64,000 bases of DNA. Origin: Asparagopsis taxiformis (Eukaryota > Rhodophyta > Florideophyceae > Bonnemaisoniales > Bonnemaisoniaceae). A program made the translations under genes and the position numbers. Positions 561-24,316 of the stretch are shown one piece after another. The stretch spans positions 1 through 64,000 of the forward strand of contig JALQPE010003011.1 of the NCBI GenBank assembly GCA_030407315.1, given 5' to 3'. Position 1 is the first letter of the stretch. Each line of letters starts with the position of its first letter. The notes below the pieces were generated by a model. The model did not search any database. It was given only the letters and a program-made list of their open reading frames with translations, and was not told the DNA's origin.

Positions 561-576
561 GATCGTCCTGAGTCTG

Positions 577-2302: not shown

Positions 2303-2371
2303 AGGTATTGGTATAGGTTGGAATGACGAAAGCTTGCAAGCTTTCGTCATTCCAACCTACAACCAATACCT
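2303..2371. repeat. Near-perfect palindrome, about 69 bp
   Basis: The arms AGGTATTGGT-(A/G)TAGGTTGGAATGACG and their complement meet at GCTTGCAAGC, centred near 2336. There is one indel and little mismatch. It would form a long hairpin and resembles the other isolated palindromes of this window rather than a terminator. Confidence 0.8.
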
Positions 2372-4671: not shown

Positions 4672-7600
4672 ATGTCTTGTCCGGACAGTATAAGAGAGGA
4701 AGCTGAGAGACGGGAAGCGCACTCGGAGGTACCACAATTGTGGATTTCATCGTCTACACAACATTTGAACAGAGAACCGATTGAACGAACTGAGATTGCA
4801 GGGATTACAATGGGAGACAATAGTATCATGAATACTACAGCGGAGAAGAGCAATTCTCCTTCTGCTGAAGAGAAAAGCATCACTATTGCTCAGTACAGCT
4901 CTTCTAAAGTGCAAGTTGATCCTCGCAAAGTGAAATTTCCGACAGTGACCTCCCGTTTGGTGCGACCGGGTCGTGTAAACGAACTGGCCAGCATTTTCAT
5001 GGATAGAGGTTTCTCTACCACTGGAACTATGATTACAGTCTGCAAAATGGAAGATAACGAAGGAGACGAGTTTTACTGCATCGATGGCTCTCATCGCATA
5101 GCTGCTCTGCAACTATGCCTGGAGAAGTACTCAGGAAAGAACAGGGATTCCTTGGAATTGGTTTGGGTACAACAGTTGATTGCGCCGAACGGGCGTCTAA
5201 TTTTCGATGCGCTGGAGGTTCTGAAACTGTCTCTCGAAGCCAATATACAAACTCACGATGTCGCTTCTGTGAGCATTGCCGACAATGTGTGTGCGGTCAT
5301 AGAGTTTCTCAGGTTTCCAACCAGATGGATCTTCCTGTTGTCCGGCTTATTCCTATTCTGAAAGAAGTGAGCTATATTCTGCCGTCCGACAGGAACCGTT
5401 CGGAGAACTCGTATAGGCAGTACATCAACATTGCGAAGGGGTTCAATCGCACAGACAGCGTTGCTTTCGTGTACTGGAGCTCTATCCCTAGCGTTTACAA
5501 TGCTTTGGATAGGAACAGAGAAATCGAGGATGCAAGAACCGAGGGAAGAGATCCGGACTTTTCTCGAATTGACTCTGCCGATATGTACGGGTGCGTGCTC
5601 GATCTTGTCAATAACGCAATATTCCGCAATGGCACGGACGGACGCGGGACGCGCGATAAGGAGTGGTTCCAGTGGTTTGTGCTCGAGATGACAGCGTCGT
5701 GGACAAGGATGAGGAGGAAGAGAGGACTTGTCAGAAATATCGGAAGCGGAAGTCCGTTCACGATGCGCACTTGGCTACTGGCTCTGTTGGCCATCTATGA
5801 TATGGCAGAGGTCGTCCGCAAGTGGTTGAACTCTGCAACGATGGAGGAATTCGTGCGAACGGATTTGGCAGCAGAAAACGCGAAGGAGGTCGGGGATAAT
5901 GATCATCGCATTGGAGAGCGCATTGTATTCGTCCTTGTCGACTTTCATGACGACGTGGTAGACAGTAGCAGTCTGAGAACCAAGAACGGGATGTTTACAA
6001 ACAGTTTTTACGACAAACTGGAATATGCTACCGGGACAAAGGCAATGCAGGAGACGAAAGCGGAGGAGGAGAGGGAACGGAATCGCATGACCCCCGGAGA
6101 AATAGAAAAAGCACTTGTTGATGGCGCCAAAGCAGAAGACGAAGAAGCACCTACTGCCGCAGAACAGGGAAATAATTCTACAGAGAAGGAAACTGTGGAA
6201 ACTTCTGGTCCTGTTCAAGCAGAAGAAGGAGTATCTGCCGAAGCCCAAGCAGAGCAGGAAGTTTCTGCTGTTGTGGAGGAAGAACAGGAAATTACTCCAA
6301 ATGTGGTGGCTGAAGAAGTGATTCCTGCTGTCGCGACGAAAGCAATAGAAGAGGCACCTCTGAGCACCCCGAAAGAAGCAGAAGACCGTCCTGCCGCAGC
6401 AAAAGAGGGAGGACAGGAACGTCCTGCCACGCGTCTTGCAGCAGCTGAGAAGAGGGAAGCAGAACGTCTTGCTGTTCTCCAAAAAGAACAGGAACGTCTT
6501 TCAGCTTCAAGGGCAGAGCGGGAAAGTCGTGCCAGGGATAATTCGCCGGGAAGGATTGTCAGAGAAGATCTTCCTCAGGGAAGGAAACAAAGCGGCGATA
6601 CGCAAAGTCTGGATATCAACTTGGACAATAGTGGTCGCATGGACATAGACACGCCTGGACAACAAGCTGGAGATGCGCAGAACCGCTCTGTGATATTGAA
6701 ACTTCGAATCAGGACACCAGAAACTTACAGCACTAGCCCGGCCGAAGTGGACAAGGAGAATTCGGGAAGAAGCAGGAGTTCTGGTGGAAGCGGCGATGAA
6801 AACGAGTCCAGGTTGCATAAGAAGCGAAGAAGGGAAGATACTAGCGCGAAGTTTTCTGAGCCCAATACGCCGGATGACAACATTGAGATTGGGCCTCCCC
6901 GGGAAAAGAAGAGTAGAGTCAATGCAAGAAAACGAACGACTGGAGAAGAAGCACCACTCTTCACTGACGAGCAAGAAAACTCCCTTCCAGACCGCACATT
7001 CGCAGAGGACATACCTGAGAAGCTGCCTTTATGCGTTCCTTCCAACTCGAGAATGAAGTATTATATCACAGAAGAAGACATTGATACAATCCGGACGGAG
7101 ATAATGGAAGCAGCTGCAGGCTACTCTACTTTGGTATGTCCCCTCGGTTCTTGTGAAAGCCAACAATACTTCAGCTACCAGAGAAGAATGATCGACGAGC
7201 TTGGTTACGTGGTGTTGCAAGACATTTTCTCTTCTACTACAGTGGGAGCAGCTACGCACGAGTTATTCACACAGATGGCCAGCACATTCCAAGGTACTAC
7301 AAGTGGCTCAAGTGCAAGTCAGAAGAACCCGTGGAAACCACTTCGACCGAAAGACAGCACTGGTGTATTCAAGACGGACCGGAAAAGCATCTGCGATGAC
7401 CTTGAGCAAGAAAGCGCGCGGCAGTACAGGAACAAGCTGATTCTGGAGCTAGGTAAGGCGATTTGTGCGGAGAACCTGAAGCTCGGGTTTGGAAGAGAAG
7501 AAGCGGTGGTCTTTCCAGAAACGGGTCTTCGTCTGATTTTGACCGCAGAAGGTAGTCAGGAGCAACTTATGCATACCGATGTTCCCGTCCGTGAGGGAAC

Positions 7601-7931
7601 TGGAACTGGTCCTCTCAACTCGCCATCATATTTCATGATGGCTGCTGGTGCGGATGGGTTCATCATTCGTATCGCCAAGTTCAGCCATGTGTGCCTAAGT
7701 CATCCAGCGAAAGACAAGTACCGCGTGCCAGTGACGAACGTGCGCATCCCACCGTATTCCCTGCTTGTATGCCGAACGGACGTGTATCACGGAGGAATGG
7801 GATTCGCGGAGGGTCGTTCTTCGGTGAGGTACCAGCATCCTATCCGGTCCCATCTATCACTGCGAACTTCCAGGGAGAAGTTGCTACAGCCTCCCTTCAA
7901 TGTCAACTACTGGGAGCGTTTAGATATCTGA
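4672..7931 (+). CDS. ParB-like domain + 2OG-Fe(II) dioxygenase protein (one frame break)
   Basis: A multidomain protein that probably acts on DNA or chromatin. Seen: a ParB/sulfiredoxin-fold segment (VTSRLVRPGRVNELASIF) ending in IDGSHR (DGSHR at 5083-5097), the family's DGxHR motif; a helical region (YINIAKGFNRT, YWSSIPS); a long acidic/low-complexity linker (about 6040-6990) with basic clusters such as KKRRRED that look like nuclear localisation signals; and a C-terminal dioxygenase. There the iron ligands would be HTD (7572-7580) and the His of YHGG (7788-7790), and the 2-oxoglutarate-binding Arg probably lies in HPIRSHLSLRT (Arg 7845-7847). The frame changes by -1 near 5310; the neighbour at 9390 aligns straight across that point, so one protein is intended. 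Start could be 4672 or the Met at 4810. Substrate unknown; TET/JBP, AlkB or protein-hydroxylase roles are all open. Confidence 0.75.
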
Positions 7932-8153
7932 TGAAATTAGTTCTTAATAGCATTCTATGGCAGGCATCAAGGCCGCCTTCAAGTAAACGATGAAAGTTAG
8001 GCTAGTACATGACGTTTGCGTATGTAGACGGGTCGGGAGATATACAATACTCAATTTAATATGAGAAGGGGAGGAAACTATGGTGGGCACTACTAGAATA
8101 GAACAAGGTAATATCGCAGTCGTCTTTGGTTACAACATTGAGGTGAGGAAGGC

Positions 8154-8437
8154 TTACAGATGATGCAGTTTCGCTGGGGTGCTGACAGCAAAGTCATCGT
8201 TACGATGACTTTGCTGTAATGATTTGATTTCTTACAGCAAAGTCATCGTAACGATGACTTTGCTGTAAGAAATCAAATCATTACAGCGGCCACAATTTTT
8301 TACCGGGTAAAAAATTCTTGCTGATTTTTTTACCCGGTAAAATTTTCTCACCACTGTAATCAAAACTTTCCTTACAGCAAAGTCATCGTAACGATGACTT
8401 TGCTGTAAGCATCCCGGGTAAACGGCTTCGGCTGTAA
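8154..8437. mobile_element. Palindromic MITE, copy 1
   Basis: Ends TTACAG...CTGTAA. Inside are the palindrome ACAGCAAAGTCATCGT plus complement three times (8185-8217; within 8213-8287, a 75-bp perfect palindrome; 8371-8409) and an ACCGGGTAAAAA/TTTTTACCCGGT stem. It shares its inner GTAAACGGCTTCGGCTGTAA end with copy 3 in inverted orientation. It has no coding capacity. I found no clear target-site duplication. Confidence 0.75.
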
Positions 8438-8979
8438 GCGGTTGGGAGTTTCGTCCGTCTCCCACCCTGGGAAGGGTGAGAAGGGAAGTGTGGAGCCGGG
8501 AACATCGTACAACGATGGTTTGGACGACTGTTGACGGCTCTGGGGAGCACTCTGCGTCGTGCAAGCCTGGTTTGCGCTGGCTGCACTACCTGGTATTGAA
8601 CGGTTCTGTGCGCAAAGTTTACTCATGAAGGAGGTAGGGTGTTGTGTACCACACCAACCATAGTTACTAACATTTGCAGTGTACTCTAGTGATGTAATTA
8701 TTATTCTAGTTTCTAACTATACAATGATATTAAGTAAGTCAGATGTGCACAGAGCATGGTCTAAGCCTAGCACGGTAGAGAAAGATGGAAGAAAGATTGA
8801 AGGGTAGGCATGCAGAGGTATGAAGGCAGCAGTATGTGTAGACTATGGCAGTGGTAAGAAAATATTTCATGCACCAAAGGGTGGGCAGAGTGACATTAGA
8901 GAGGTGGTGTGTAGGGGGAAGGTAGGTGGAGATGATGAAGGAGGACAACAGAACGAGAGCGAGGGTTGAGACCAACGGC
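8438..8979. other. Spacer between two MITE copies
   Basis: No gene seen. The first 30 bases (GGGAGTTTCGTCC at about 8445-8457) recur inverted beside copy 3 near 13499, so the MITE flanks themselves share sequence. Confidence 0.4.
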
Positions 8980-9185
8980 TTACAGATGGAGCAGTTTACC
9001 AGGATGCTTACAGCAAAGTCATCGTAACGATGACTTTGCTGTCAGGAAACAAAACATTACAGTGGCCATGATTTCTTTACCCGGTAAAAAATTCCTGGCC
9101 TCTGTAATGAAACGTTTCCTTACAGCAAAGTCATCGTAACGATGGCTTTGCTGTAAGGATCCTTGGTAAACTGCCTGAGCTGTAA
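8980..9185. mobile_element. Palindromic MITE, copy 2
   Basis: About 206 bp with ends TTACAG...CTGTAA and subterminal GCAGTTTACC / GGTAAACTGC. The ACAGCAAAGTCATCGT palindrome occurs twice (9008-9042 and 9119-9156, the latter with one substitution), flanking a TTTACCCGGTAAAAAA stem. It lies 200 bp upstream of the gene starting at 9390 and could carry regulatory sites for it. Confidence 0.75.
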
Positions 9186-9324
9186 TTGTCGTACAACGAA
9201 AAGTGATGTGGAAGGTTCGGATTGGTCAACCGCTGAATATCATTACCAGGGTGTATACTAATAGGAATATGTCAGATCTCTAAGTTTCGCCTATCTTACT
9301 CAGCTTACGCAGCAAAACAGCTTG

Positions 9325-9389
9325 TCGTTCAGATCTTCTTCTCTCTTTCTCAATCTTTCACTCTTCTTTCCTCATTTCTCACCAAAGCA
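9325..9389 (+). promoter_or_regulatory. CT-rich leader upstream of ATG 9390
   Basis: A nearly uninterrupted pyrimidine tract (TCTTCTTCTCTCTTTCTC and on) ends just before CACCAAAGCAATGG. Such CT-rich tracts near the transcription start are typical of filamentous fungal promoters, and the ATG context is good (A at -3, G at +4). It supports 9390 as an original start codon. Confidence 0.45.
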
Positions 9390-12300
9390 ATGGCTCAACA
9401 ATCCCCCAACGCTTTCGACCGCCAGGTGCGCTCTGCCAGCCGCCGTGACAACGATTCTCCCACTCCTTCTCCCTCTCCTTCTCCCTCTCCTTCTCCTTCT
9501 CTGGCCCCCCTGTCCCCATGGACGTTTGCGAAGCTGCTGCAGCGCTGACCCAGCTCAGCCCAGCACCTCAGCCCAGCACCTAAGCCCGTCCCCTCCCCCC
9601 TTCCGCTTCCGATCCCGCGGTTGTCCCGACAATCGACGCTGGCGTTCCCGCAACTCCGCTTCCGGCTCAATCTGCCGAAGCGGCGCCAGCCGTCGAGGGA
9701 TCTGGTGCTCCTCTGCCCAGCTCGCCTGCTCCGGACATGATCATCGCGTCCGGCAGCGACTTGGCAGAGGATGCGGAGAAGGTCGATGATCACAACGCTC
9801 GTGACATCGTACCGAACAAGCCTCTCCGCAGCACCAGGCTGGCCTACCCTGGCACAGTGCCCATCCCGGTGGATGTGGACTACGACATAAGTCCGGAGAG
9901 CTGCCGAAACATTCCAGTCTTCATTTCCCCTCTGGATGTTTCTCCTCCGGCAGTCGTGTCCAGGGTGGTCAGGCCGCATCGCGTTGATGAGTTGAAGAAA
10001 ACGTTTCTCACTCAGGGATTTTCCGTGATTGCTTCACGCGTGTCCGTCTGCGAGGTGATTGATTCCAATGCCAAAGTCCGACTGCAATATGTCGATGGAT
10101 CTCACCGAGTGACCGCGTTGAAGGCCATTCTCGAGTCGGCTGGACCTGCTCCTGCGAAGGACAGTCCAGAGTGGGAGGAGTTTGTCAAGTCTGACATCTA
10201 CCGTCGCTTTGGAACTATTCCAGTCGACTTTCTCCTCCCACCGACTCGGCTTGGCCGGGATGTCTTCTGCTCCGAAGAAGTACTCCCGCTTTCACGGCTG
10301 ATGAACTTCCACACCCACAATGTCAGCGAGGTAACAGTTGCTGACAATGTGTGCTCTGTGATGGAGTTCATCAATATCCACCGCCTGGGAAAGAAGAAGA
10401 TCGAGCCGACCGTTCAATACATTAAAGAACGGAAAGCGCTGAGCTGGATTCGTCCGAGACAGCTCATGCGCTACGTCTCGATCGCGCGAGGTTTCAAGAC
10501 CATTGAAAGCCCTGCTGCTTTCAAGTACTGGTCGAGCATCCCGAACAGGCCGGAGTTCGTGCAGTTTTCTTCGACTGAGGATCTGGCTGGGTGTACGGTG
10601 AACTTGTTCAATGGGTCGTTCAGGAGTGCTCCGGATGTCCAGAAGTGTTTCATCCTGGAGATGACGGCGCGCTACACTTGTAGCCGTCGGTCGGCCGGGC
10701 TGAAACCGTACTCGGTTGGTACCATTGGGCAGGAATGGATTGCTGGTTTGTTGGAAATCTTCGGGTACGTGAAGGAGGTGGCCGAGTACTGGAACGTGTC
10801 GGATGTGTTGAGGATGCTGGATGGGTCAATTCCCAGCCGGGTGACCCGAGCAAGAGCTTCGACATTCGCTCGCGCGTTGTCGAAGTTCTTGCTCAGATGG
10901 TCCCCAAGAAGGGGTGCTGGGCAGACTTCCGTCCCAAGGAAGGCCCCCCCCGATGGTTACAGTTACGAACACATTTTTCCCCGTAAGAAGTCTGTCTTCG
11001 GGAAGGACGCCAGGAAAATGCTCCTGCGCGTCACTGGGTACCGCGACATGCAAATGCGGAAACGCTTTCACGCGATGTACCCAGACATCCCACATGCTGC
11101 GCTCCCAGCCACATGTGGTGATGATGCCCCCATCCCTTCCTCTTCCAATTCCTTGCCCATCCCTTCATCCTCCATTCCTTTGCCCCCACCACCTCAACTG
11201 GAATCTTCCAGCAATTCCGAGGTTGCCCCTGTTCCTCTCACCCCTGCCGTGTCTGCATCCTCCCCTGCGGTGACCCCGGTCAAGCCGACTGCGCGTGGTC
11301 CCCAGGATGGCAGTGAACGTCTGGTCCAGTTTCCCACGCCGGGACTGGTACCCCCAACCGTCCTGTCCAAGCCGCGCAGGAGCAGGTCTCACCGGCTTCG
11401 CAGCCTGAGCCTGCGACTCCGGCTGCCGAGCAGCACCCTGCTGCTCCGGCCCCCGCTGTCGAAGCTTCCCGTTCTGCATCTGCTAGCAGTTCGGGAAGCT
11501 CCAGCGATGACAGTTTCGTCCCTTCACCATCCGGTGGGGTTGGACAGAAGACGGTTGCGAGGATTTCGACGGAGGGCCCTACTCCCGAGAATGTGGTCGA
11601 GGGCAGCAGTGCGAAGGGCGGTGCAGATCCTGACGAAGATGTCATTGAAGTCAGTGATTCTGCACCGCCCGGAGTGGAAACTTCTGGGAGGAAAGTGATG
11701 CCCAGAAGGAGTACCCGCCTGCAAGCGAGTCGTTCCGGTCGTGGTGGAACGGCGGGTGGTGCTGTGGAGGTCGTCGAGCTGGAGAGCGCCCCCGAGGATG
11801 CGGGTGAAAACTCCATCCTCGGGAAGCGTAACTTGGAAGCGCTTCTGCGACGCCCGAGCCTTCTACCAAAAAGAGAAGGCTCGGTGAGACTTCATCAAAG
11901 TCGTCGTCAAAGAAATCCAAGTCGGCTTCCCGAGGTCGCTCTCGGGAGCCGGTTCTCCAGTTCGACGACGCCCAGGAGAATCCCATTCCCGACAGTATCG
12001 TCGATGAGAATGTGGCCGCCGTTCTCCCCAGCGCAATTGCGTCTGGCAGCCGGATGAAGTACTATATGGAAAGTACGACGGTGGAGACGGTTCGGGCGGA
12101 AATGAGGGCGGCAGCATTCCAGGCAGCTGCATCGCCGGGTGCTGAGGATACGGTGGTGGAACAGTACTTTGCGGTGAAGCGGGCGTTGCTGGAAAACTTG
12201 GGGGTTATTGTTTTGGAACGCTTGTTGGAATCGTCCACGGCTGGGGTGCGACGCATGAGCTGTTCGGTCACTTCGCTAGGCAGTTCCCGCTGGTTGAGGA

Positions 12301-13041
12301 GGTTGAAAAACCCTCCCAGCAGTCTGATTCTAACGATGACGACAGGGAGCCACAGGACGAGCCGCCAGCTTTCGCAAAGCCCGGCTTCGATCCTTCGCCG
12401 TGGCAGTTCATCCACAACGTGGGTGATGCGAAGGACCGCATCGATGGTGGTCGTGGGCGCCTCTCTCTGCCGCGGCGTGAGTTGTGCGACAAGTTGGAGG
12501 AGGGGAATTTGGAGATGTATAAGAACAAGTTGGTGGCAGAGCTTGCTCTTGGTGTTTGTGCGGAGTTCTTGAAGTTGGGAATGGAGGGTGGTGATCCTGT
12601 CTTCTTCCCGAAGACAGGATTGCGGCTGCTTCTTACAGCAGATGGGGCTGCGGACCAGGATGGGCACACGGACTTCAAGGTATCAACGAGTAGTGTTGCA
12701 GGACCTACCGAGTCTCCATCATATTTCATGATGTCGAGCGGAGCAGATGGATTCTCTATAGTAGCTGCCCCTTATAGTCATGTATGCCTGGCCAATCCGG
12801 ACGCCGATATGTGGAAGGTTCCCATTCATAGGCTTTATGTGCCACCCTATTCCGTATTGGTTGGTCGCGGTGACCTTTACCATTACGGGGTCGGCTTCAG
12901 CGCGGAGATATTCCTGCGGGCGAAAAGTTAGTCTATGGCCTGCCCACGCGCGGCCACATCTACTTGAAGACGGAGAAGGACGTCCTCACGGACCACATCC
13001 ACACCGTCGAATATTACAAGTACGATAGGAGCAATAGATAG
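9390..13041 (+). pseudogene. Second ParB-like + 2OG-Fe(II) dioxygenase gene, frame-broken
   Basis: Paralogue of the gene at 4672-7931, same domain order. Seen: ParB-like segment with VVSRVVRPHRVDELKKTFL and VDGSHRVTAL (DGSHR at 10094-10108); helical region (YVSIARGF, YWSSIPN); a proline/serine-rich linker with basic stretches; and a dioxygenase domain with HTD (12665-12673), YHYG (His 12881-12883) and TRGHIYLKT near the end, matching IRSHLSLRT of the paralogue. The frame shifts by -1 near 9507, 11348, 11855, 12240 and 12900, and there is a TAA in the ParB frame at 9581-9583. Several breaks fall at runs of G or C (C6 near 9505, C5 near 11346, G4 near 12238). The last frame ends at TAG 13039-13041. 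It may be a decayed copy or a good gene hurt by assembly errors; the catalytic residues all survive. If upstream breaks are real, translation could begin at Met 9737. Confidence 0.7.
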
Positions 13042-13517
13042 CATATCAGAAGTATTAAAACCTATACTACTGTTCCCTGCTATAAAGTTCTGTCTTTCTC
13101 ATCTCAACATTGTTACCTTAGCCCATTTTTCAGTTCTCATCTATACATCTGTCCTTCATCTCATAGTTTAGTGCTACTCAGCAGATTGCTTGCTACTTTT
13201 TAATATTAGTCTACAACGTTATATGATTTTACTAGCTAGGCCGTAGGGGGAGACTAGTTTCAACCCTTGACAACGCGCAGATTTCGACTACGAGAGCCGT
13301 CACTGTGATAAATTCTTGGTAGAATTTTCGTCTATCTTCCCACCTACACTAGGCTACCTATATATATACAGGGTATAACCTGAACAGAGACCACGTGAGG
13401 TAAAATACTCCTGAGAGCTGCTCACAGCCGTACAGACCTTTGCTGAGCAATTTACCCGACTTCAAACTTCGCTTCTTACCTTTACCAGGATGAGAGAAGG
13501 ACGAAACTCCCTGCTGC
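13042..13517. other. 3' flank of the second dioxygenase gene
   Basis: No gene seen. It contains an AT-rich TATATATATA stretch near 13361 and, near 13497, a GGACGAAACTCCC segment that is the inverted match of sequence beside MITE copy 1. Confidence 0.4.
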
Positions 13518-13828
13518 TTACAGCCGAAGCCGTTTACCAGGGTTCCTTACAGCAAAGTCATCGTACGATGACTTTGCTGTGAGGAACCGTTTCCTTGCAG
13601 TGGCCGAAAAAATTTTTACCGGGTAAAAAATCAGCAAGAATTTTTACCGGGTAAAAAAATTGTGGCCGCTGTAATGATTTGCTGTAAGAAAACGTTTCAT
13701 TACAGCGGCCACAACTTTTTTACCCGGTAAAGAAATCATGGCTGCTGTAATGATTTGTTTTCTTACAGCAAAGTCATCGTAACGATGACTTTGCTGTCAG
13801 CATCCCCGGTAAACGGCCCGCACTGTAA
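13518..13828. mobile_element. Palindromic MITE, copy 3
   Basis: About 311 bp, ends TTACAG...CTGTAA. Two ACAGCAAAGTCATCGT palindromes (13546-13583 and 13763-13800) enclose three TTTTTACCGGGTAAAAA-like stems and TTACAGCGGCCACAA segments. Relative to copy 1 the arrangement is inverted, so copies 1 and 3 form about 300-bp inverted repeats around the gene at 9390-13041. Confidence 0.75.
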
Positions 13829-14104
13829 TGGGGTGACTGCTTCTCCTACATCGCTCTCTTACTGGTGTTCTACATGCTGCGTTGCTACACAATTTCGCAC
13901 TCACATCTTTCTAGTTTCTCTCCTTTTCGTATCCATAGGTATAGCAGTAGAAAAGTGGATAGTTTGCACTCCAGGCCGCAGATGCCTTCCTGCAGTCATG
14001 TCACGATTGTTGTAGTGTAGTCTATAATGTCTAGCGCTCTTGGAAGATGATGCACAGTCTATTGTCTCTGTCAATGCGTGTTTACTCAAATCTATCAAAG
14101 TAGC

Positions 14105-17100
14105 TCAGTTAGCTGGCCAATATCTTCTACCATAGTCAGCAAATATCTCCTCATCAGCTTCAACGTCTCTGGTCAGAACGACCTTGACAGCATGGGGATT
14201 CTTGATATTCGAAGCAAAGTCCGGTTTGTCTATGGCATCGCCTTGTCGAAACTCGGCTGACTGTGTTCGACTCACCTCGGTCGCTTTCTCCGTTCCGTCA
14301 ATGACCCGACAATCATTGAGGTAGCTGGTACAATTATAGACCGCTGGAACGAGCCAGACCTTCCGAACAGGTGCACCCCTCCCTATGTACGTGGTTTCCA
14401 ATTCCATGTTGTAGTCCTGGAACCTCTGTCCTGTGCACCCAAATCCTTCCGGGCCGTACATCACTGATCTCTGCGGTTCCGAGTCTCGAATCTTCGCATA
14501 GAAAATCGTCCCGTTGTACCAGCCAATGACCGTCCCCTTCTTCAGTTTCTTCGCCGCGAATACGCCAAACCCACCACCTCTTACCTCCGATTGCGAAACA
14601 TAGACACCGTAGAATGCGGCATCAGCAGCCAGAATCGCGTCCGGGTCTATGCTCCAAAACGAGTGCATGTCCTCGGCCGGCCACTGGTCCATAGGCACCC
14701 CGCTCAATCTGTGAAGCATCGACCCGTCCTTCTTCATTGACGCAACGAACACAAGCAGATGGTTCGGCAATGCTGTCACAGCAGGCAAACCTTCTGGTGC
14801 ATCTGAGATGTGCTTCTGACGAAGCCTTGGAGCTTTTCCTGTGACCGGTACCGACTCGTCCCCAAGAATACTCTCCACCTCACGCTGCAAGATCCCCCCA
14901 TATCGCCCGGCTTTCACCTCACTGACGAAAGCATGCAGTATCCACTCCTGCGATGCATCGTGGCACCTTTTTTCCTTCTCACACCCAATGAACCGACGAT
15001 ACGTACCATCCCTCAACGTCATACACGCTATGGCTGTGCTGTATGTTCCCGAGAAGAAATCCATCACGATATCGTTCTGCTTCGAAAATCGTTCCAGAAG
15101 CTCACGAAGAGTGGTCAACGCCTTCTGCTCATGGCGCAGTCGGTTGTTCTGCCCATCGTATTGAGCTTCACCAGCCGACAACCTCGGAACGTTGTCAATC
15201 GCGTTGGTGAACCCAGGGTGCCTCGATATGTCCGGATTGTGCAACCTGTAATCCACCATATCGTATGCAGCCATACCCTTCCCCCGCTTATACGCATGGA
15301 TAACGAAATCGTGCATATTATGCAGTGTGCACGTTTTCGTCGATGGATTGGACGTAAAGCTGTGTGGTCGGCGAGATAGCACGACTGGAACACTGTCCAC
15401 AATCATCTTGCCAGGCTCGGCATTTCTGATTGCATCCATCCATGCCACGAGTTGGCGCACGCTGGAATAGATTAGAGCATGACCGCCAGGCCGAAGAACT
15501 CGAACTATTTCACACGCAACACTCGCCAACTCTTCCGGCTCCAGAATATCGTACTCCGAGTTTTCTCTGCCGCCTTCCCGCCTCGTGTTGAATGGAGGAT
15601 CAGTGAGCACAAGCTGAACACTGTCCTCCAACACACCATCTTCCAGGAAACTAATTTTGTCCTCCACCTCTTTGGCTACATCAGTAGCGTCACAATTCAC
15701 AGTGTGAATGTAACGCCCCATCACAGCTTCCAGCTTGGTGACATATTCCGGCTTGGATTCCTTTCCGACGTCAACGAGCGGTGCTTCTGTAGGCGATACA
15801 GTGTCAACCTCCATAGCGTCATCCTCGGCCGCACCTTCTCTTGTTGCTGTTTCGCTAGCAACCGCCGCATTATCGTCCTCTCCACCACCGCGCTCCAGCC
15901 TAGCCTTCTTCCTCTGTGGCTCCAGACTATCCTCTTCTATATCCTCGCTGCCATTGTTTGGCACTGCTGCGGATATTTCCATCTGCGCAGGTGCACCTTC
16001 AAGGATGCCAGGCTCGGGCGTATCCTCAAGACTGTGCAACTCATCCATGGTCAGAGGAAGCTTTCGTTGCTCTCGGGTTCGCAATAACCAAGCCTTCAGC
16101 CTCCTCTGACCATCCAGGGCATGAGACGTGTTCAACTTGGCTCGCATGAACGAGTTCAATCCGAACTTGTCAGGAGTGTCGAAAAGCAAGGCTCGAAGTC
16201 TCTGCATCAGCTGACCACGCTCGGCGAACACATTCACCTCAGTGACACATTGGCGTATCGACAGCAGGAAGGCGCTTGTCAATGATCGCAGTCTTGCATC
16301 CACAGCCACTGGAAGGTCGGCACAGAACCCGTTTTCACTGTCTACAGTTTTCGGGACAATGGTCAGGTTTTTCCGATGCTCCTCGACCGCGCAGCCATCA
16401 GACCGATTCGGGAGTGACCTGAAGCAAAGGCTCGCAGGATCGAATACCATGAACGGCCAGCACATCGATTCAACATCCTCATACCCCAACACTCTTGCCC
16501 CGGTATCCCACGCAGCTAACACACGGTCGACAACAAATCCAAGCTGGTTGGCTTGCGCACTGGATGTTGCAATTCCAACCATTCCACCACCACCAATGGC
16601 CCCGGATGTGGCTCTGGCCCGCCTAGATGGCGCACTGCCCATCTCCTTACTGCGAATAGCCAAGATACACTGGCAAATCATAACCATCAGCCTCCTGAAC
16701 CGCTTCTGGCTAGCCTGCAAAGAATCTTGCATGTCGGATGTAGCGCCGTCTAGAAAGTACCTGCTCGAAAGCAGTTCGCGGTTCAGTGGAGAGGACAATT
16801 CTCCGCGGGGTGTCTTGCCAAACATTTCGACGGCACGAGAACTAGTCACCCCCACCTGTTTCGGAAACTCAACCATCCTCGGAGAATCACCCATCTCTGC
16901 ATTGAGTCCCCATGCATGACAAAACATTTGCCACAGACGCAAATCAATCGAACTCGAATCTTCTGCTCGGTGATACGGCCGAAGCACAGCCAGGATAGAC
17001 ATGCATGAGCTGTACTGCGGTTTACCACTCAGGCTTGAAGCAATTTGGCCGCTTGGATCGCAGGATTTGATCCAGCCCAACACATCGGCCATCCTCACAG

Positions 17101-17581
17101 ACGAAATATGGGCGTACTTGTCCTTTCCGTTTTGGACCCAGTACTCGTCTCTGAGATCAACGGCGATCATCAGATACTCAACAAACATCATGCGCCTTTG
17201 CAGGCCTGCAATGTCGTTGGATGTCGTCGCTCTCACACGGTCCAGCACAACAGCAGTACTGCTGTTGGTGTCCGCCACGATAGACTCTTCTCGCATAGGA
17301 ATCGTAACGCCAGGAGGAAAGACGCCCTTCTCCATTCCACGTACAATTGCCATGCAGTGGTGCGCTCCATCCAATATCTCCAGAACGCCTTCTCGAAACC
17401 TGCCAGTCACGGGATGAGCTGTGTCATAACCGCTGTTGCGAATGCTCTCCATGAGCGCTTCCACATGACTTGCATCAACATCGCGAATCGATACGAATTT
17501 GCTGACTTGATTGGGGTCGATGAACACCCATCCGTCGTGCTTTTCACCGTGATTGTGGAACGTTCCTTCCATGGCGAACAA
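14105..17581 (-). CDS. ParB-like + beta-class DNA methyltransferase + SET domain fusion
   Basis: Intact 1158-residue protein. Residues ~20-80 form a ParB-like domain with LDGAHH (71-75; the usual DGxHR has His for Arg). Residues ~80-500 are mostly helical and unassigned. A charged linker (~505-610) carries a basic PQRKKARLER patch, a likely nuclear signal. Residues ~650-870 are an amino-methyltransferase: catalytic LTDPPFNT (DPPF 661-664; 15590-15601) comes before the SAM-binding DFFSGTYSTA (841-850), with HEQKALTTLRELLERF just upstream. Motif IV before I is the beta class, and DPP[FYW] favours N6-adenine over N4-cytosine (inference). Residues ~985-1155 are a SET domain: GGGFGVFAAKKLKKGTVIGW, NCTSYLND in place of NHSC, and EIFADYG. 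Known: ParB-methyltransferase fusions occur in phages and bacteria; I do not recall one with SET. Divergent from the gene at 18086. Confidence 0.85.
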   Translation of the reverse strand: MFAMEGTFHNHGEKHDGWVFIDPNQVSKFVSIRDVDASHVEALMESIRNSGYDTAHPVTGRFREGVLEILDGAHHCMAIVRGMEKGVFPPGVTIPMREESIVADTNSSTAVVLDRVRATTSNDIAGLQRRMMFVEYLMIAVDLRDEYWVQNGKDKYAHISSVRMADVLGWIKSCDPSGQIASSLSGKPQYSSCMSILAVLRPYHRAEDSSSIDLRLWQMFCHAWGLNAEMGDSPRMVEFPKQVGVTSSRAVEMFGKTPRGELSSPLNRELLSSRYFLDGATSDMQDSLQASQKRFRRLMVMICQCILAIRSKEMGSAPSRRARATSGAIGGGGMVGIATSSAQANQLGFVVDRVLAAWDTGARVLGYEDVESMCWPFMVFDPASLCFRSLPNRSDGCAVEEHRKNLTIVPKTVDSENGFCADLPVAVDARLRSLTSAFLLSIRQCVTEVNVFAERGQLMQRLRALLFDTPDKFGLNSFMRAKLNTSHALDGQRRLKAWLLRTREQRKLPLTMDELHSLEDTPEPGILEGAPAQMEISAAVPNNGSEDIEEDSLEPQRKKARLERGGGEDDNAAVASETATREGAAEDDAMEVDTVSPTEAPLVDVGKESKPEYVTKLEAVMGRYIHTVNCDATDVAKEVEDKISFLEDGVLEDSVQLVLTDPPFNTRREGGRENSEYDILEPEELASVACEIVRVLRPGGHALIYSSVRQLVAWMDAIRNAEPGKMIVDSVPVVLSRRPHSFTSNPSTKTCTLHNMHDFVIHAYKRGKGMAAYDMVDYRLHNPDISRHPGFTNAIDNVPRLSAGEAQYDGQNNRLRHEQKALTTLRELLERFSKQNDIVMDFFSGTYSTAIACMTLRDGTYRRFIGCEKEKRCHDASQEWILHAFVSEVKAGRYGGILQREVESILGDESVPVTGKAPRLRQKHISDAPEGLPAVTALPNHLLVFVASMKKDGSMLHRLSGVPMDQWPAEDMHSFWSIDPDAILAADAAFYGVYVSQSEVRGGGFGVFAAKKLKKGTVIGWYNGTIFYAKIRDSEPQRSVMYGPEGFGCTGQRFQDYNMELETTYIGRGAPVRKVWLVPAVYNCTSYLNDCRVIDGTEKATEVSRTQSAEFRQGDAIDKPDFASNIKNPHAVKVVLTRDVEADEEIFADYGRRYWPAN

Positions 17582-18085
17582 AGGTAGAGTTTTTAAGAAA
17601 GGGATAGTTGGTTGCTGCTTGACCAGGGTGGCGCAAAGCAGAAGTTGGTTGTTTAAAACAAAGTGTCAGCGAGTGGTAGCACTTCGGTGGCTGTTTCCTT
17701 TCCACCCCTGTCCGAACCTTTACAAGATAACTACATCGACTGTTAGCTCAATAATCAATGTAATACTAAAGTAATACTCAAAATATTTTTCCATGCAATT
17801 TATTGGGCCGCGTAACATCTCCAAGCGTATCTTTGTAGTCCAATCGTATGCATCCGACATTCACTTCTAGAACGATTATTCACATCAAATTTTATGCTGC
17901 AATCAGTTCATGGCAGACATCATCCACACTGACGTGTCAATTTTGTCAATTGTCCATTCTATTTCTACACCACCTAAACATCTCTTCTGGACCTTTCCAA
18001 TCCTCCTAGTATATACTACTCTTTAGCAGAAGGTAACGGTTAGGCTTTCACTAATACAACAATTCTATCCCATAGCTATCCCAAC
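17582..18085. promoter_or_regulatory. Shared divergent promoter region
   Basis: This 504-bp gap separates the start codons of the methyltransferase-SET gene (-) and the gene at 18086 (+), so it must hold both promoters. A TATATAC element lies near 18011, about 75 bp before the rightward ATG, within a CT-rich stretch. Co-expression of the two genes is plausible but not shown. Confidence 0.45.
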
Positions 18086-19447
18086 ATGCTTCCTCTCGCT
18101 CCAAACGACGTTATAGAAGTTCAATGGGAACTTCGGCCGTTTGGGAGGAAACGAAAAATTGTGTGGTGGTCTGCAATCGTCAAGGAAATTACTCAGGTCA
18201 AGACTGAAACAGACCCATTCCTCCATGCATTGCTCGAATACAAAGCTGAATATGGTTTCGACTCTACCCTTTCTCAAGTCAAGATTTCAGATCGTAACGA
18301 GCTCGTCGACAAGGATTCCGGAAGGGTTCTCCCGTGGCGAAGTGGTGAGCTTCGCAGTATGGACTCACCTGCATCCCCAGCAGAGAGAGACCCGGACTAC
18401 GGCATTGACCACACTCGCCACCGCCACCGCGGCATCCTTCAAGATTGCACTGCGGATCAAATGAAGAAGACCATAGCAGAAATGCTGGCAAGATTGGAAA
18501 AGCTGGAGTCAGCTGCCAAACATCCTCTTCCCCCTCCATTCGATTCCAACAGCTCCATGACCTCCTTTGCTCTGACTGTATGTAGCATTCTGTTTCAGAA
18601 GCTTGGTGTGTACACGGACAAGCCCCTCTCCCTCCGGATGACAAAATCCGAGCACTCCAGGGGAATGCGACAAACATCGCAAGAAGAAATCAGAGTACAG
18701 GCTGACTGCTCCCTTGCTCAATTCCGCACTATTGCCATTCAATGCAAGGCGAAAGAGAATCGTGATGTTCTCTTCCTGCCGTCCTTTGAGGACATCACGT
18801 TTCCCTCTGGAAATGAGTCGGATCTTTCCATCATTTTCCCCACCTTTCAGGCACTATGTGACTCCATAGGTACCTCGCAACACGGGTTCCAGAAAATATT
18901 GGTGAAGAGCAGGGCGGAACGCGATGGAGGCAGCTCATCGATTGTTCCAATTTTAGGAAATCTAGTCGACGTTGACTGCTCTCATGATGCTCCTTCTTCC
19001 GCATTTCTCGTCGGCTCATCTGCTTACGTCCTGTCCAGCCCAGACCAACGTATGACAGTTCTTTGCAGAGACTCCTACGAGTTTGACCATGTCAACAATA
19101 CATTTTTACATCCCCTATGTCTTAGCCAACTATCACAGTCTAGCATCGTGGACTCTTTCCACCTACGTGATAAGGCTACTGTTACTTATGGAGCAACGTT
19201 TTCGTTACTGTGGAGACGTATTCAGCGCCGAGCTTGTTACAGCACTTTCCAGCCTCTATCAACCGCAGAGACGTTTGGTACACTACATCTACGCTTACCT
19301 TGCTGTATTTTCAGTGGTACTACTATATGCCAGGAGCTTGAAGACATTGGCTATGAGGCTATCTCTCGTCTTGGCTTCAATGCGGATTCAGACACTACCC
19401 ACCCACCCTCTCCTCCACCTGCCACCTGCAGTCCGGAGCAAAAATGA
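18086..19447 (+). CDS. Unrecognised protein, possible Tudor/Agenet-like N-terminus
   Basis: 453 residues, one continuous frame. The first ~75 residues (DVIEVQWELRPFGRKRKIVW, WSAIVKEI, LEYKAEYGFDSTLSQVKI) have the spacing of a small beta-barrel reader of the Tudor/Agenet kind: 'valuable aromatic-rich strand, WW-A-V, then a Y..YGF turn'. This is a tentative reading. Residues ~130-150 could be a short coiled coil (MKKTIAEMLARLEKLESA). The middle (SFALTVCSILFQKLGVYTDK) weakly resembles a stretch in the 19723-21249 protein. The C-terminal half is unrecognised and the end is proline/serine-rich. It runs convergent with the coiled-coil gene (276-bp gap) and divergent from the methyltransferase-SET gene. 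A chromatin reader beside a SET writer would make sense, but that is inference. Confidence 0.5.
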   Translation: MLPLAPNDVIEVQWELRPFGRKRKIVWWSAIVKEITQVKTETDPFLHALLEYKAEYGFDSTLSQVKISDRNELVDKDSGRVLPWRSGELRSMDSPASPAERDPDYGIDHTRHRHRGILQDCTADQMKKTIAEMLARLEKLESAAKHPLPPPFDSNSSMTSFALTVCSILFQKLGVYTDKPLSLRMTKSEHSRGMRQTSQEEIRVQADCSLAQFRTIAIQCKAKENRDVLFLPSFEDITFPSGNESDLSIIFPTFQALCDSIGTSQHGFQKILVKSRAERDGGSSSIVPILGNLVDVDCSHDAPSSAFLVGSSAYVLSSPDQRMTVLCRDSYEFDHVNNTFLHPLCLSQLSQSSIVDSFHLRDKATVTYGATFSLLWRRIQRRACYSTFQPLSTAETFGTLHLRLPCCIFSGTTICQELEDIGYEAISRLGFNADSDTTHPPSPPPATCSPEQK

Positions 19448-19722
19448 TAAAGCACACCTATCCGTAGTTATCCTGTTCCTGGGTATTCCATTCTAGAGCT
19501 CCTGTGGCCATCAATTTCTAGTAAAGACGGATACCCTCGCCCCTTCCTACTTCGACTATTCCACTACCTGTCTCTGCGCTTTTCCTTCGACTTGACACTA
19601 TCGTCTGACTGGTTTCCTGATGTCTCTCATCTATCTACTTCCATCTATTACAAAATTCAACTCAACAGAAATTTTATTTCTTCATTCTTCGTCTACTACA
19701 CCGAAACTGGTTTCATCCGATA

Positions 19723-21249
19723 CTACTCCCCTTCATTCTCGATTTCATCATCGACGAATACCTTCACATATTCTGCATCTCCTCCGTCCTCTTCCATAGA
19801 CCTGAAGCTCTCCTCCAGCACTGATTCCCCCCCATCGTCTACATTCAGTTCTTCATATCTATCACGCGATATAGTCAAAACCTCCTCATTCATGAAACGA
19901 CTACTCACCCGCTCCCCGGGAAGAAGCAGTTTCACTGCTTCATTGATTTCCCGGATTTGCGCTCCTTCCACCTCTGTTCCACTTTGAAATTTCAAAATCG
20001 TTCGGAACCCGTATGCAAGTATGTAGATGAATTGCAAGGAGTATTCTGAACGTCGCAGGAACATGTTCTTATCAGAACATTGCGTGTAGGCGACTGCAAA
20101 GTTCAGTGCAACCTCTACTAAATTGATCCTCCTAGTCAAAAACCTCTTGTCCGGTTCTCCAATTATTTGAACTTCGTACTCGACTTTGAATAGCATTTCT
20201 TTTCGCACTGCAATGAAGTCGCGAAGAATCTTCATATTCTTGTCATCCATTGCTGCACGCTCCGCTGCATTCATTTTCCTCTGCGCCGAGTACAGACTTG
20301 GAACTGACTCAATGTCCAGCCCACCGTCGTGCAAATGATGCTCCATTCGGACTGAACCTTGAAACCCACTGTATAGAACGAATCCAAGATCTCGGATGAA
20401 CCGGTTTCGCACATGATCTCTGGACTTGTTCATAAACCCGGTCACTGCTGTGAGTGCCGATTTCGTCACAGTGATGCCTACCTCCTTTCTGTGCAACGGC
20501 CCATTGTCACCAACCTTTCTTCGCTTCTGCTTTCGAGCGGCCCCATCACTTCCCTCGGACGTCCCATGCATTCCATCCATGCGAGCAGAGTCCGTTCCGC
20601 GAATTGTCTCCTCAATGGTCCCGGTAGTCACATACCCCCGCGCCCTCCACCGTTCGATACCTTCCGACGTTCCATTGGAGCTGGAACGGTCTCCTCCCTC
20701 TCTGAAAGAATTGTTTTGACACGTATTCTTGATTAAAGAGGTCACAACTTGGCAGCGCAATTCAATGTGGTTCCGGCCGGCAAGCGTCCTATTGAACACA
20801 TCCTTTCGCTCATTGCTCTGCCTGGCGAACATCAGCGTATTGATTAGCTGGCATCCGTTGAAATGCCTATCCCTCTTATCCACCATTGCCTTCGTGTACG
20901 TTGGAACAACAGCACACAGCACAGCACACACCATTTCGAACGTGAACGATTTCTCCGCATCCTGCGCAATGCGGAGACGTTCCCTGTCCTTCTCGGAGGC
21001 GATCTTCTTCGGATGTCCTTGTCCCTGGCTCAGAAGCCCATCGACGATGCTCTTGACCTCCTGCATATCGGTGTTTAGCATGGAGACAGTCTTGGCGACA
21101 TTTCCGAGAGTCTCGCGTAATTGAATGGTGCTCTTCTCGACGGCATCCATTTTATCACTCAGGGCTTTCAACTCTGCAGTGATGTTCGAAAAGCCCTCAC
21201 GCGTTATTTCGGAAAATGCGGCGATGCTTACGGAGGTTTCGGGATTCAT
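19723..21249 (-). CDS. Coiled-coil protein, related to the 31995-33638 product
   Basis: 508 residues, intact. Residues ~10-75 form a coiled coil (ITAELKALSDKMDAVEKSTI, LRETLGNVAKTVSMLNTDM). A basic KQKRRKVGDN patch suggests nuclear location. The C-terminal half carries a helical domain: SALTAVTGFMNKSRDHVRNR, FVLYSGFQGSV, then FAVAYTQCSDKNMFLRRSEY. These align by eye with SALRALTKFFNNARKTVKLE, FFLLHQDFGAAL and LLSSLTQCNQRHILCYSTQS of the protein at 31995-33638, in the same order. The C-terminus is acidic. No known family recognised. Both family members lie in palindrome-bounded blocks, so the family may be a core gene of that kind of element rather than host cargo. Confidence 0.6.
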   Translation of the reverse strand: MNPETSVSIAAFSEITREGFSNITAELKALSDKMDAVEKSTIQLRETLGNVAKTVSMLNTDMQEVKSIVDGLLSQGQGHPKKIASEKDRERLRIAQDAEKSFTFEMVCAVLCAVVPTYTKAMVDKRDRHFNGCQLINTLMFARQSNERKDVFNRTLAGRNHIELRCQVVTSLIKNTCQNNSFREGGDRSSSNGTSEGIERWRARGYVTTGTIEETIRGTDSARMDGMHGTSEGSDGAARKQKRRKVGDNGPLHRKEVGITVTKSALTAVTGFMNKSRDHVRNRFIRDLGFVLYSGFQGSVRMEHHLHDGGLDIESVPSLYSAQRKMNAAERAAMDDKNMKILRDFIAVRKEMLFKVEYEVQIIGEPDKRFLTRRINLVEVALNFAVAYTQCSDKNMFLRRSEYSLQFIYILAYGFRTILKFQSGTEVEGAQIREINEAVKLLLPGERVSSRFMNEEVLTISRDRYEELNVDDGGESVLEESFRSMEEDGGDAEYVKVFVDDEIENEGE

Positions 21250-21753
21250 GTTGAACTTGCAATTGGAGTTTGCTAAAAGGAGAATTGCTTTGAAGGAAGG
21301 ATGTCACGCTTAGTACAGCAGTGTTGTAGCAAATATCATTTCAGTGGATGCATCCATCCTGGTCTACTCTACATAATAATAATGCTTCTCAGTGCTCCGT
21401 AACGGTTATTTTTCATAATTTAGTGGTGGATGGTGCGTATTCTTTCCTTTGCCACCACCCACGTCCTGTGCATACCACACCTCGCTACCAGACTGACGTC
21501 TCCTACTAGACACTTTCAATGCAAAGATAGATAAGTATAATTTGAAATGCTAAACTCAACATATTATAGCTACTCTGTACATTCTCTCCTTACGGTGAGA
21601 CAAACCAGATATGTTCTGTTCTCCCAATCTTCCTTTCTACAACTTCCTATTCAGCATCTAGCTTCCCCGCACCCAACTATCTGTAAAGCACCATCACAAT
21701 TAATATAGTCGTATACCACACACCATTCCAATATTTACCTTCACACCAACACT
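21250..21753. other. Upstream region of the coiled-coil gene
   Basis: AT-rich, no coding evidence. It should contain the promoter of the leftward gene at 21249. Confidence 0.35.
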
Positions 21754-22131
21754 ATGCTCCATATTTCCTCTAAGTCCACTCCACCAGACAGTGTTGTCAA
21801 ACAATGCACGGTACTACCCGCAGACAATACAATTTGCTATCTACACTACTGTCTACAGATTTCCCCAGACAGTGCAGTAATACAGTACAATGTATTGTCT
21901 CAGACAGTAAAATGTACTGTCTGCACATACTGTCTGGCGGCAACACTTCCGGACTGTAAAATTTACTGTTCTGGACAGTAAATTTTACTGTTTTTGGTAC
22001 TGTCCAGATTTCGTGCCAGTTTACTGCTGCAGCAGTATTCTGAAATTTCCAGACAGTAAATTTTACTGTCTCCGCGCACTGTCTTGGCCAGACAGTAATT
22101 TTTACTGTCTCAGACAGTAAATTTACTGTCT
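21754..22131. repeat. CAGTA/TACTG palindrome array, right copy
   Basis: About ten short palindromes of the type GACAGTAAATTTTACTGTC, for example near 21971-21990, 22051-22070 and 22091-22131. They share the CAGTAAATTTTACTG core with the array at 2885-4045. The array ends sharply at about 22131, where CpG-rich retrotransposon sequence begins. Confidence 0.8.
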
Positions 22132-23122
22132 TTTTTCATTCCCAACACCGTAGTGTCGTGACCGTACGTGGTAAACCCCTTTCGGGTTTGCTCGTGCGTT
22201 TCGACTAGCCGGCGGGCTTTTCGCTTTCGCGCGTCATTCGTTATGCCCGCGTGGCAGGACACCGTTGTGTCGTTCCGTGGTTGCCGTACGTGGCTACCGT
22301 GTTCGGCGTCGTGCCTCACGGTGGCGATTCGGTTCGCCGCCCGTCGTCGCGGCCTCGTTGGCTCGTCGTTCGCACGCTTTACTCGCGCGCTTCGTGCGCT
22401 GAGACCCGTTGGTCTAATTCGTCGGCTAACGTGTAGCTGCGTTCCGCTTCGTGCGGGAAGTTTCGTAATGAGGCCGTTGCCATCTTCGTTGGGGACGCGT
22501 CCGTTCTACGTCGTTTCTCCGCCTTCCGGCGTCACGTTGCCGTTAGCTCGCGAGCTGTTGGCGTTGACCACGTTGGGCGATGCGACTCATTGTCAGCGGC
22601 TGTCCACGGGGACGTACGATGGCTCACGTGACATGCCAAAATTACGAAATTTTCGGGGCACGCGTATCCCGAGATTTGGCCGGATTAGCGCACTGTAATC
22701 GGCCCGATTTTTCGTACCGTGCGTCCATGGCCCGCTGGCCCTATCGTCATTTTTCGCGCGAAAAATCTGACGTGATGTCCGTCCGTGGCCCGTGATGTCG
22801 TCATCGTTGCCTGTGGGACGGACAACACTGTCGAGCCAGTCGTGGCTCTTCACATCATGTGAATCGTCCGCGGGTGGACTCGTCGTCCAATCTTTCGTTG
22901 GCGCTCGTGCCTCCACCAACGTATGGTGTCGAAAACGAAAAGAGCTACGGCTCTAGCACCCATCGCGCCCCCCCAACGCAAGGGTGGACGTCCCAGCCAC
23001 TCGTTGTGCTGTCGCTTCTCGTTCGTGCGGCTCGTCGTCTTCGTTTGTTGCATCGTGCAACGTCGCGTACGCGTGCGCTTAACCCGACGCTCTTGTGCGT
23101 TTTCGGGGGCCGTCATGGCCTT

Positions 23123-24310
23123 TCACGTTGTTGCTCGTCGCACGCGTGCAAAGTATCGAGAGACGCTCTCTTCAGATACGTTCCGGCGGGGCTCCCACGT
23201 AGGGTTACGATACCCGACCCACTTCACGAGGAAGTCTAGTGTGCCGTCATCGTTTACGCGATGGTTGAGTAGGTCGTCTACTACATACGCCGGACCGTCG
23301 CGGTTCTTGTCGAGGTCTGCCTCGGTACCGAGCCACGTGGCATCGTATGACTCCAGCGGGGGCGCATTCGCCGGCGTTGGCGCGTACGCAACGCGGTCCG
23401 AGTTGACACGTTCGACTACGTCTCCTCGTTGGATGACGAACGTTCGTACGTCGTTACGTAGTACGCGGAACGGTCCCAACGCGTGGTTTCCGAGCTTCGT
23501 GCCCTTTGTGGTCCCGTCCGTCGGGTCGATGAATACGTATTCTCCCGCGCGGATGTTTCGATTCGAGACACGGACTCGTTTGTCGAAATTACGTTTATAA
23601 CGTGCCTGCGCGGCCTTCAGCGTTCGATAAGCGTTGTCCATCGTTGTGGCGAGCTCACGAACGTAAGTGGCTCGCCCTCCCCCGTCGGGTAGTTCGCGGT
23701 TCGCTACCGACGTGTGTAGCGCCAACGGTGGCGGTGGATTCGTGAGAATCAAGTCGAAGGGCGTCGTGCCTGTGCTCGAATGCACATGCGTGTTGTACGC
23801 AAACGTTAACGCCGATGCGTATCGATCCCAGTCGTTCTGGTTTTCGTTCACGTAATTGCGCAGCATCGCCAGGATCGTCCTGTTGTAGCGCTCCACCTGC
23901 CCGTTCGTTTGGGGGTGGTACGTCGACGTAAAGACGTTCGTCACGCCGATTTCGTTGCAGACGCGCTGGAAAAACTTAGCAGCGAACTGCTTTCCGTTAT
24001 CGCTTATGAGCGTCCGTGGGGGTCCATACGAGAAGACCCACGCGTTGACGAACGCGCTCGCCACGTTGGCGGAATCGATATTTCGTAGAGGTACGACTCT
24101 AGTCAGCTTCGTGAAGCGGTCCGTTATCACGAGAATAAATCGGTTGCCACGCGTGGTCTTCGTAAGCGGACCTAGTATGTCGATACATAGGTCTCGAAAC
24201 GGCTCCGTAGCCGGAAATAAACGTAGCGGGTTCGTCCGTTTGCGAAGCTTCACGCGGTTCTTCGCACATCCGACGCAGTTTCGTACCGTTGCGTGGATGT
24301 CGGCGGCCAT
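23123..24310 (-). CDS. Element 1 integrase with chromodomain
   Basis: Ty3/Gypsy integrase, which joins cDNA ends to target DNA. The frame opens at PAMAADIHATVRNCVGCAKN, the second half of the HHCC zinc finger; its first half is in the preceding frame, separated by one TAG. The catalytic core shows DILGPLTKT, LISDNGKQF and TNGQVERYNR (the D,D,E residues). A GPY/F-like region follows, and the C-terminus is a chromodomain (FLVKWVGYRNPTWEPRRNV), which in chromoviruses targets integration to marked chromatin. The core looks catalytically complete. Confidence 0.85.
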   Translation of the reverse strand: MAADIHATVRNCVGCAKNRVKLRKRTNPLRLFPATEPFRDLCIDILGPLTKTTRGNRFILVITDRFTKLTRVVPLRNIDSANVASAFVNAWVFSYGPPRTLISDNGKQFAAKFFQRVCNEIGVTNVFTSTYHPQTNGQVERYNRTILAMLRNYVNENQNDWDRYASALTFAYNTHVHSSTGTTPFDLILTNPPPPLALHTSVANRELPDGGGRATYVRELATTMDNAYRTLKAAQARYKRNFDKRVRVSNRNIRAGEYVFIDPTDGTTKGTKLGNHALGPFRVLRNDVRTFVIQRGDVVERVNSDRVAYAPTPANAPPLESYDATWLGTEADLDKNRDGPAYVVDDLLNHRVNDDGTLDFLVKWVGYRNPTWEPRRNVSEESVSRYFARVRRATT

Positions 24311-24316
24311 CGCGGG

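Follow-up and report, generated by a model that had tools for sequence, protein, structure and literature searches.

Proteins in which a ParB-like domain is joined to a DNA amino-methyltransferase are known from algal mobile elements as well as from phages. The Ectocarpus transposon Sola1-1_Ec32 encodes a protein of the ParB-N4/N6 methyltransferase type, similar proteins are cited for transposons of green and red algae, and the Ectocarpus Sola1 element carrying the ParB-methyltransferase spans 21.5 kb (PMC12477816). Moreover, fusions of the ParB-N6_N4_Mtase type are enriched in prophage regions (PMC12704722). Here, a stretch of 64,000 nucleotides from the red alga Asparagopsis taxiformis (contig JALQPE010003011.1, positions 1 to 64,000; hereafter the window) is analysed, in which a single gene is predicted to encode a ParB-like fold, an amino-methyltransferase and a SET domain. 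The predicted protein appears to be a variant, extended by a SET domain, of the ParB-methyltransferase type noted in algal transposons.

Like the Sola1-1_Ec32 protein, the window protein unites a ParB-like part and an amino-methyltransferase in one eukaryotic polypeptide of about 1100 amino acids, so that both domains of the algal transposon accessory proteins are present. On the contrary, no SET domain is mentioned in the main text on Sola1-1_Ec32 (0 occurrences; PMC12477816), and neither a transposase nor element ends were found around the window gene. Phage and prophage fusions have the domain order and the methyltransferase similarity in common with the window protein (PMC12704722; viral loci L009-L011 below), but the latter is eukaryotic, has about 550 residues between the two domains and bears an additional SET domain. 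The bdelloid rotifer enzyme N4CMT likewise combines a bacterial-type amino-methyltransferase with a chromatin domain in a eukaryote, yet it features a chromodomain, which is a reader, and an SPPY motif (PMC8885841), whereas a writer-like SET domain, DPPF and a ParB-like part are found here. Since the ParB-methyltransferase proteins of algal transposons are already in print (PMC12477816), only the SET addition is a candidate for novelty. Titles and abstract beginnings of the papers listed in literature searches yielded no such addition, an earlier description being possible, and the term 'SET domain' occurs 0 times in the main text of a survey of ParB-fold proteins, the supplements of which lay outside the search (PMC12704722). 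An earlier note on this DNA, made from the letters alone, had regarded the triple architecture as unfamiliar, which may still hold for the SET addition, while the underlying pair had been described; its statement that ParB-methyltransferase fusions occur in phages is in line with the survey (PMC12704722) and with three IMG/VR loci judged by eye.

The gene and its parts are arranged as follows:

14105 to 17572, minus strand: main gene of 1155 amino acids, with a ParB-like fold, a long middle region, a beta-class amino-methyltransferase and a SET domain
17273 to 17536, minus strand: predicted ParB/sulfiredoxin-like fold, residues 13-100, from the AlphaFold2 model
17357 to 17371, minus strand: P motif, DGAHH, which reads DGAHR (GxxR) in the relatives P0001 and P0002
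14948 to 15619, minus strand: N6_N4_Mtase domain, residues 652-875, from Pfam, phrog_67 and DpnA matches
15590 to 15601, minus strand: DPPF, catalytic motif of the methyltransferase
15044 to 15061, minus strand: DFFSGT, S-adenosylmethionine (SAM)-binding motif of the methyltransferase
14129 to 14572, minus strand: SET domain, residues 1001-1148, from Pfam and a PDB profile
14312 to 14317, minus strand: N-D in place of NH, within the SET domain

The open reading frame (ORF) 14105-17581 on the minus strand comprises 1158 codons from a TTG; its first ATG lies at 17572 and its stop at 14105, which yields 1155 amino acids. The extent of 14105..17581 given in the earlier note thus has the correct stop but includes three codons ahead of the first ATG. 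A chance ORF is ruled out by the 1155 codons, given that no stop-free run exceeded 316 codons when the window was simulated 20 times at order 1. Within a protein database of 5.8 billion sequences, of which the 8000 candidates with the most shared words were scored, three relatives were found. P0001 (1155 amino acids, on a 6935-base contig) differs from the window protein at 5 residues, P0002 (1169 amino acids, on a 7897-base contig) is 43% identical across 99% of the length, and P0003 (953 amino acids) is 31% identical across 46% and carries the methyltransferase and SET domains without the ParB part. As P0003 sits on a contig of 4568 bases, its missing ParB part may reflect a cut or mis-predicted protein. 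These three and the window protein form the four-row alignment used below; a second protein search with this alignment as query recovered P0001 alone. Because P0001 and P0002 are full-length and P0003 keeps methyltransferase and SET together, an assembly fusion of two genes is ruled out. Hence, the open frame, Pfam, the fold match and the relatives confirm the initial claim of one intact frame joining a ParB-like part, a DNA amino-methyltransferase and a SET domain.

The methyltransferase is the most strongly matched part of the protein. Pfam N6_N4_Mtase (PF01555) matches residues 652-875 with 60.8 bits against a gathering score of 26.7 (E 2.3e-16), and this family as well as SET matches all four alignment members at a loose limit of E 5 and is precomputed for all three relatives. 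The best family score was obtained with the phage family phrog_67 (E 3.8e-23), from a library of viral families only and with the ParB content of phrog_67 unchecked, and a profile built from three sequences recognises DpnA (E 3e-10), MboIIA, CcrM, RsrI and the N4 enzyme PvuII. In the beta class of these enzymes, the catalytic (D/N/S)PP(Y/F/W) motif precedes the SAM-binding F-G motif. The same order, already noticed in the earlier note as DPPF ahead of DFFSG, is confirmed here, the second motif reading DFFSGT. TDPPFN at residues 657-662 and D.F.GT.ST are invariant in all four rows, as is DFFSGT at 838-843 except for residues 839 and 841. By Pfam score and motif order, the domain is a predicted beta-class N6/N4 amino-methyltransferase, the product of which may be either N6-methyladenine (6mA) or N4-methylcytosine (4mC); which of the two cannot be told from the sequence.

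The SET domain likewise exceeds the gathering score of its family (PF00856, 27.6 bits against 22.4, E 4.2e-6), with 105 profile positions spread over 148 residues. A three-sequence profile of this region matches EZH2 chimaeras (3.5e-6), KMT5A (about 3e-5), KMT2C (6.6e-5) and the viral vSET (1.3e-3), these matches covering the first or the last part of the domain and not its centre. A G.G.FA domain start and an EEIF.DYG-like end are common to these proteins and the window protein, EEIF.DYG being invariant in 4/4 aligned rows. In contrast to them, the window domain is stretched, neither it nor the alignment matches a pre-SET or post-SET family in Pfam, and N-D stands in the place of the NHSC-type motif. 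The string NCTSYLND, which the earlier note had singled out as altered, occupies the place where that motif is expected, and N-D is found at the expected N-H in the window protein and all three relatives. The alteration is therefore a family trait, by which decay is ruled out as its cause; on the other hand, since the NHSC-type motif is absent, the domain is filed as SET-like and not as a canonical SET enzyme.

The N-terminal part was recognised mainly by its fold. Pfam ParBc matches neither the window protein nor the alignment; the ParB call of the earlier note is nonetheless upheld by the AlphaFold2 model, in which residues 13-100 match chains of ParB, Noc, KorB, a serine kinase, SbnI and sulfiredoxin in fold searches. 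With four sequences as input, 10-residue blocks of this part reach a predicted local distance difference test (pLDDT) score of 59-82. At the sequence level, a 'ParB-like protein' of a Leptospira phage matches with E 1e-3 (22.8% identity, 29% of the query), the phage ParB family phrog_1033 matches P0002 with E 6.2e-5 but the window protein with only 0.3, and phrog_4272, a phage family of unknown function, with E 1.8e-4 is listed with the sequence support for this part. A PDB sequence profile gave 12 matches (best E 0.25), none of them ParB. The ParB identity is thus predicted from the modelled fold together with weaker sequence matches. LDGAHH, previously taken as the ParB mark, does lie in the place of the P motif, but its arginine is replaced: the window copy reads GAHH and both relatives that possess the ParB part read GAHR. 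In tested ParB-fold proteins, an exchange of R for A in the GxxR motif abolished nucleotide binding (PMC12704722). Hence, the ParB domain of the window copy, and with it a loader function, may be weakened, and this copy is filed by its ParB-CTPase fold only and not as a nucleotide-binding ParB.

With regard to origin, the ParB-like and methyltransferase portions are similar to fusion proteins of phages, as judged from sequence and model. Searches with the methyltransferase profile found relatives in 3 of 47 pattern-matching stretches of IMG/VR and in 7 of 107 genome stretches. The three viral loci (L009-L011) all have a ParB-like start, judged by eye and not by a hidden Markov model, and in their frames the catalytic motif is reached after 206-276 codons. 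In all seven loci from the genome collection, this motif follows the upstream stop by 36-86 codons, which leaves no room for a ParB-like part. A scan for DG.HR-type boxes carries no information here, since it flagged none of these ten loci, the viral ones included. The full-length alignment found no relative among 53 pattern-matching IMG/VR stretches, and the phage DNA search gave no match. Phage and plasmid tblastn searches returned plain methyltransferases that match portions of the domain at 23-42% identity, their architecture being unchecked. Descent from a phage-type ParB-methyltransferase fusion, with the SET domain gained in a eukaryote, fits these data without being proved by them.

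The surroundings of the gene are rich in repeats and mobile elements, a setting on which the earlier note was silent:

8152 to 8558, plus strand: left copy of an inverted repeat of palindromes of about 0.4 kb, bounds combined from several arms
13397 to 13829, minus strand: right copy of the same repeat, separated by about 275 bp from the main gene's stop codon
2862 to 4044: left CAGTAAA/TTTACTG palindrome cluster, 6 of 21 motif matches at 2.8-4.1 kb
21905 to 22131: right CAGTAAA/TTTACTG palindrome cluster, 10 of 21 motif matches at 21.7-22.2 kb
23123 to 27724, 38276 to 43318 and 57306 to 61534, minus strand: three Ty3-type retrotransposons with reverse transcriptase and integrase matches

The two copies of the inverted repeat enclose a ParB-like gene at 9737-12931; the main gene lies outside the unit 8152-13829 and is thereby ruled out as its cargo. 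CAGTAAA/TTTACTG occurs 21 times in 64 kb, with 10 matches in the densest 500 bp as opposed to at most 2 in 100 simulations, and its two clusters, noticed after the fact, flank an interval of about 19 kb that contains the main gene and the ParB-like genes and approaches the 21.5 kb length of the Ectocarpus Sola1 element (PMC12477816). Perfect hairpins with arms of at least 10 and loops of at most 7 number 23 in the window and 0-1 in 10 simulations. A chromodomain match was obtained in two of the three retrotransposons, whose long terminal repeats were not found; these chromodomain-bearing elements mark the window as eukaryotic from its sequence.

Several palindromes stand out individually. A perfect one of 75 nt with a one-base loop (8213-8287) has a 33-nt core that repeats at 8185, 8374, 9010 and 13765; position 13549 holds a version of 32 nt. 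A lone perfect palindrome of 46 bp lies at 2314-2359, five intergenic ones of 24-48 bp, differing in sequence by eye, at 29754-30848, and more long inverted repeats at 31137-31875.

A second type of ParB-like gene, not mentioned in the earlier note, was found next to the main gene and is listed here with two other neighbouring ORFs:

4672 to 7931, plus strand: gene with a ParB-like and a C-terminal oxygenase-like part, in two overlapping frames (4672-5361 and 5115-7931)
9737 to 12931, plus strand: second, broken ParB-like/oxygenase-like paralogue, by identity to the first gene
18086 to 19447, plus strand: ORF of 453 amino acids, divergent from the main gene, no Pfam match
19723 to 21249, minus strand: ORF of 508 amino acids, no Pfam match above cut-off

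Both plus-strand genes open with a ParB-like part (DGSHR) and close with a shared domain, with 38% identity over 152 columns in the former and 50% over 149 amino acids in the C-terminal part; an intact relative of the first gene, P0004, comprises 1086 amino acids. The shared C-terminal domain displays an H-T-D ... Y-H ... R pattern, which we take to suggest an Fe(II)/2-oxoglutarate oxygenase, the distal R being read in the 4672-7931 gene only. AlphaFold2 modelled this domain with a mean pLDDT of 33.0, its PDB sequence profile gave one match (E 0.73), and P0004 has nothing near a Pfam cut-off and no NCBIfam match. As structure, PDB, Pfam and NCBIfam lend no support, the oxygenase label is a reading of the motif. 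ORF 4672-5361 matches GmrSD_N, a restriction-enzyme domain, below the cut-off (13.0 bits against 33.2, E 0.11); the match spans DGSHR and would more simply be read as the ParB-like part. When the main protein's ParB part was compared with the neighbouring ParB-like proteins by BLASTP, E 0.86 was reached in the expected register, and further comparisons gave no match.

Elsewhere in the window, ORFs 19723-21249 (minus strand) and 31947-33638 (plus strand) are remotely related to each other, with 23% identity across 180 columns (E 7e-7), and match no Pfam family above cut-off. A fragment at 241-810 (plus strand) resembles a helicase C-terminal domain below cut-off (Pfam E 0.0055), and tRNA-Phe (gaa) at 28723-28797 is the sole tRNA of the window.

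On balance, the main gene probably encodes an accessory protein of a large eukaryotic mobile element, namely a form, with an added SET domain, of the ParB-amino-methyltransferase proteins of algal transposons. The ParB fold would serve as a loader that is gated by a nucleotide and acts on DNA of the element itself, the palindromic repeats being possible sites; the methyltransferase would then place 6mA (or 4mC) on this DNA, and the SET domain would methylate a lysine of an adjacent histone or another chromatin protein. As an outcome, copies of the element would carry a mark by which they stay accessible or are identified as self. The earlier note's proposal that DNA and histone methylation would be written at the same locus is partly supported, in that the three-domain protein is real, but the SET motif is non-canonical and the window copy lacks the P-motif arginine. 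The single frame with three domains, its conservation in relatives and the mobile-DNA setting speak for this reading, from which we infer element membership, the targeting sites, both activities and the benefit to the element. Several results weigh against it. No DNA-transposon transposase was recognised among the 26 ORFs scanned with Pfam out of 54 unspliced ones of at least 150 amino acids, a search of the window found no terminal repeats with target-site duplication around the main gene, and the clear inverted repeat at 8152-13829 leaves the gene outside. The flanks 1-14104 and 17582-32000 share only 3 matches of 18-25 bp (best E 0.010), all of which fall in palindromic clusters. Moreover, Foldseek yielded no match of the ParB part at E 0.001 (best 3.2e-3, probability 0.99), and hhalign against the viral fusions was weak (probability 0.4%, E 0.15), if in the right register. 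Outside the ParB part the AlphaFold2 model is poor (whole-model mean pLDDT 38.6), the methyltransferase and SET folds being therefore assigned from sequence; as these parts mostly lie below pLDDT 50, the absence of a methyltransferase or SET chain from the fold-search matches listed carries no weight. That the element possesses both a writer of joint DNA and histone marks (ParB-methyltransferase-SET) and an eraser of a methyl mark (ParB-oxygenase), which are targeted by one kind of domain and on palindromic arrays would set and reset its own chromatin, is a speculative extension that we regard as improbable.

The near whole-length conservation with P0002, and an unbroken main frame beside two ParB-like neighbours that are both broken in the window, would also suit a domesticated host gene, in which a ParB-methyltransferase-SET protein captured from an element now serves as a chromatin writer and the nearby repeats are incidental. 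Yet retrotransposons and palindrome arrays surround the gene, and the P-motif arginine kept in P0001 and P0002 is changed in the window copy, which would be odd under host selection, so that domestication appears rather unlikely. The same GAHH, together with the loss of nucleotide binding on exchange of this arginine for alanine in tested members of the fold (PMC12704722) and the broken neighbours, is what would be expected of an element gene in decay, the frame of which survives by chance although the gene is already non-functional and has no present role. Against such decay stand 1155 codons without stop or frameshift, intact methyltransferase motifs and an altered SET motif that is shared by all three relatives and hence no sign of decay; we consider it unlikely. 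A role in defence or self/non-self modification against other elements or viruses, akin to an anti-restriction use of ParB and methyltransferase in phages, could be read from the best family score (phrog_67, in a viral-only library), from the enrichment of such fusions in prophage regions (PMC12704722) and from the GmrSD_N match, which has the simpler explanation given above. Retrotransposon parts aside, the scanned ORFs gave no above-cut-off match to a partner of the restriction or nuclease type, the PADLOC library being unsearched, and this role seems very improbable.

If active, the protein would bring together in one polypeptide a clamp on DNA, a DNA mark of the bacterial type and a mark of the histone type, and would thus provide a selfish element with a direct route to shape its own chromatin. 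In that case, the proposed role of the methyltransferases of algal transposons would become testable in a single protein.

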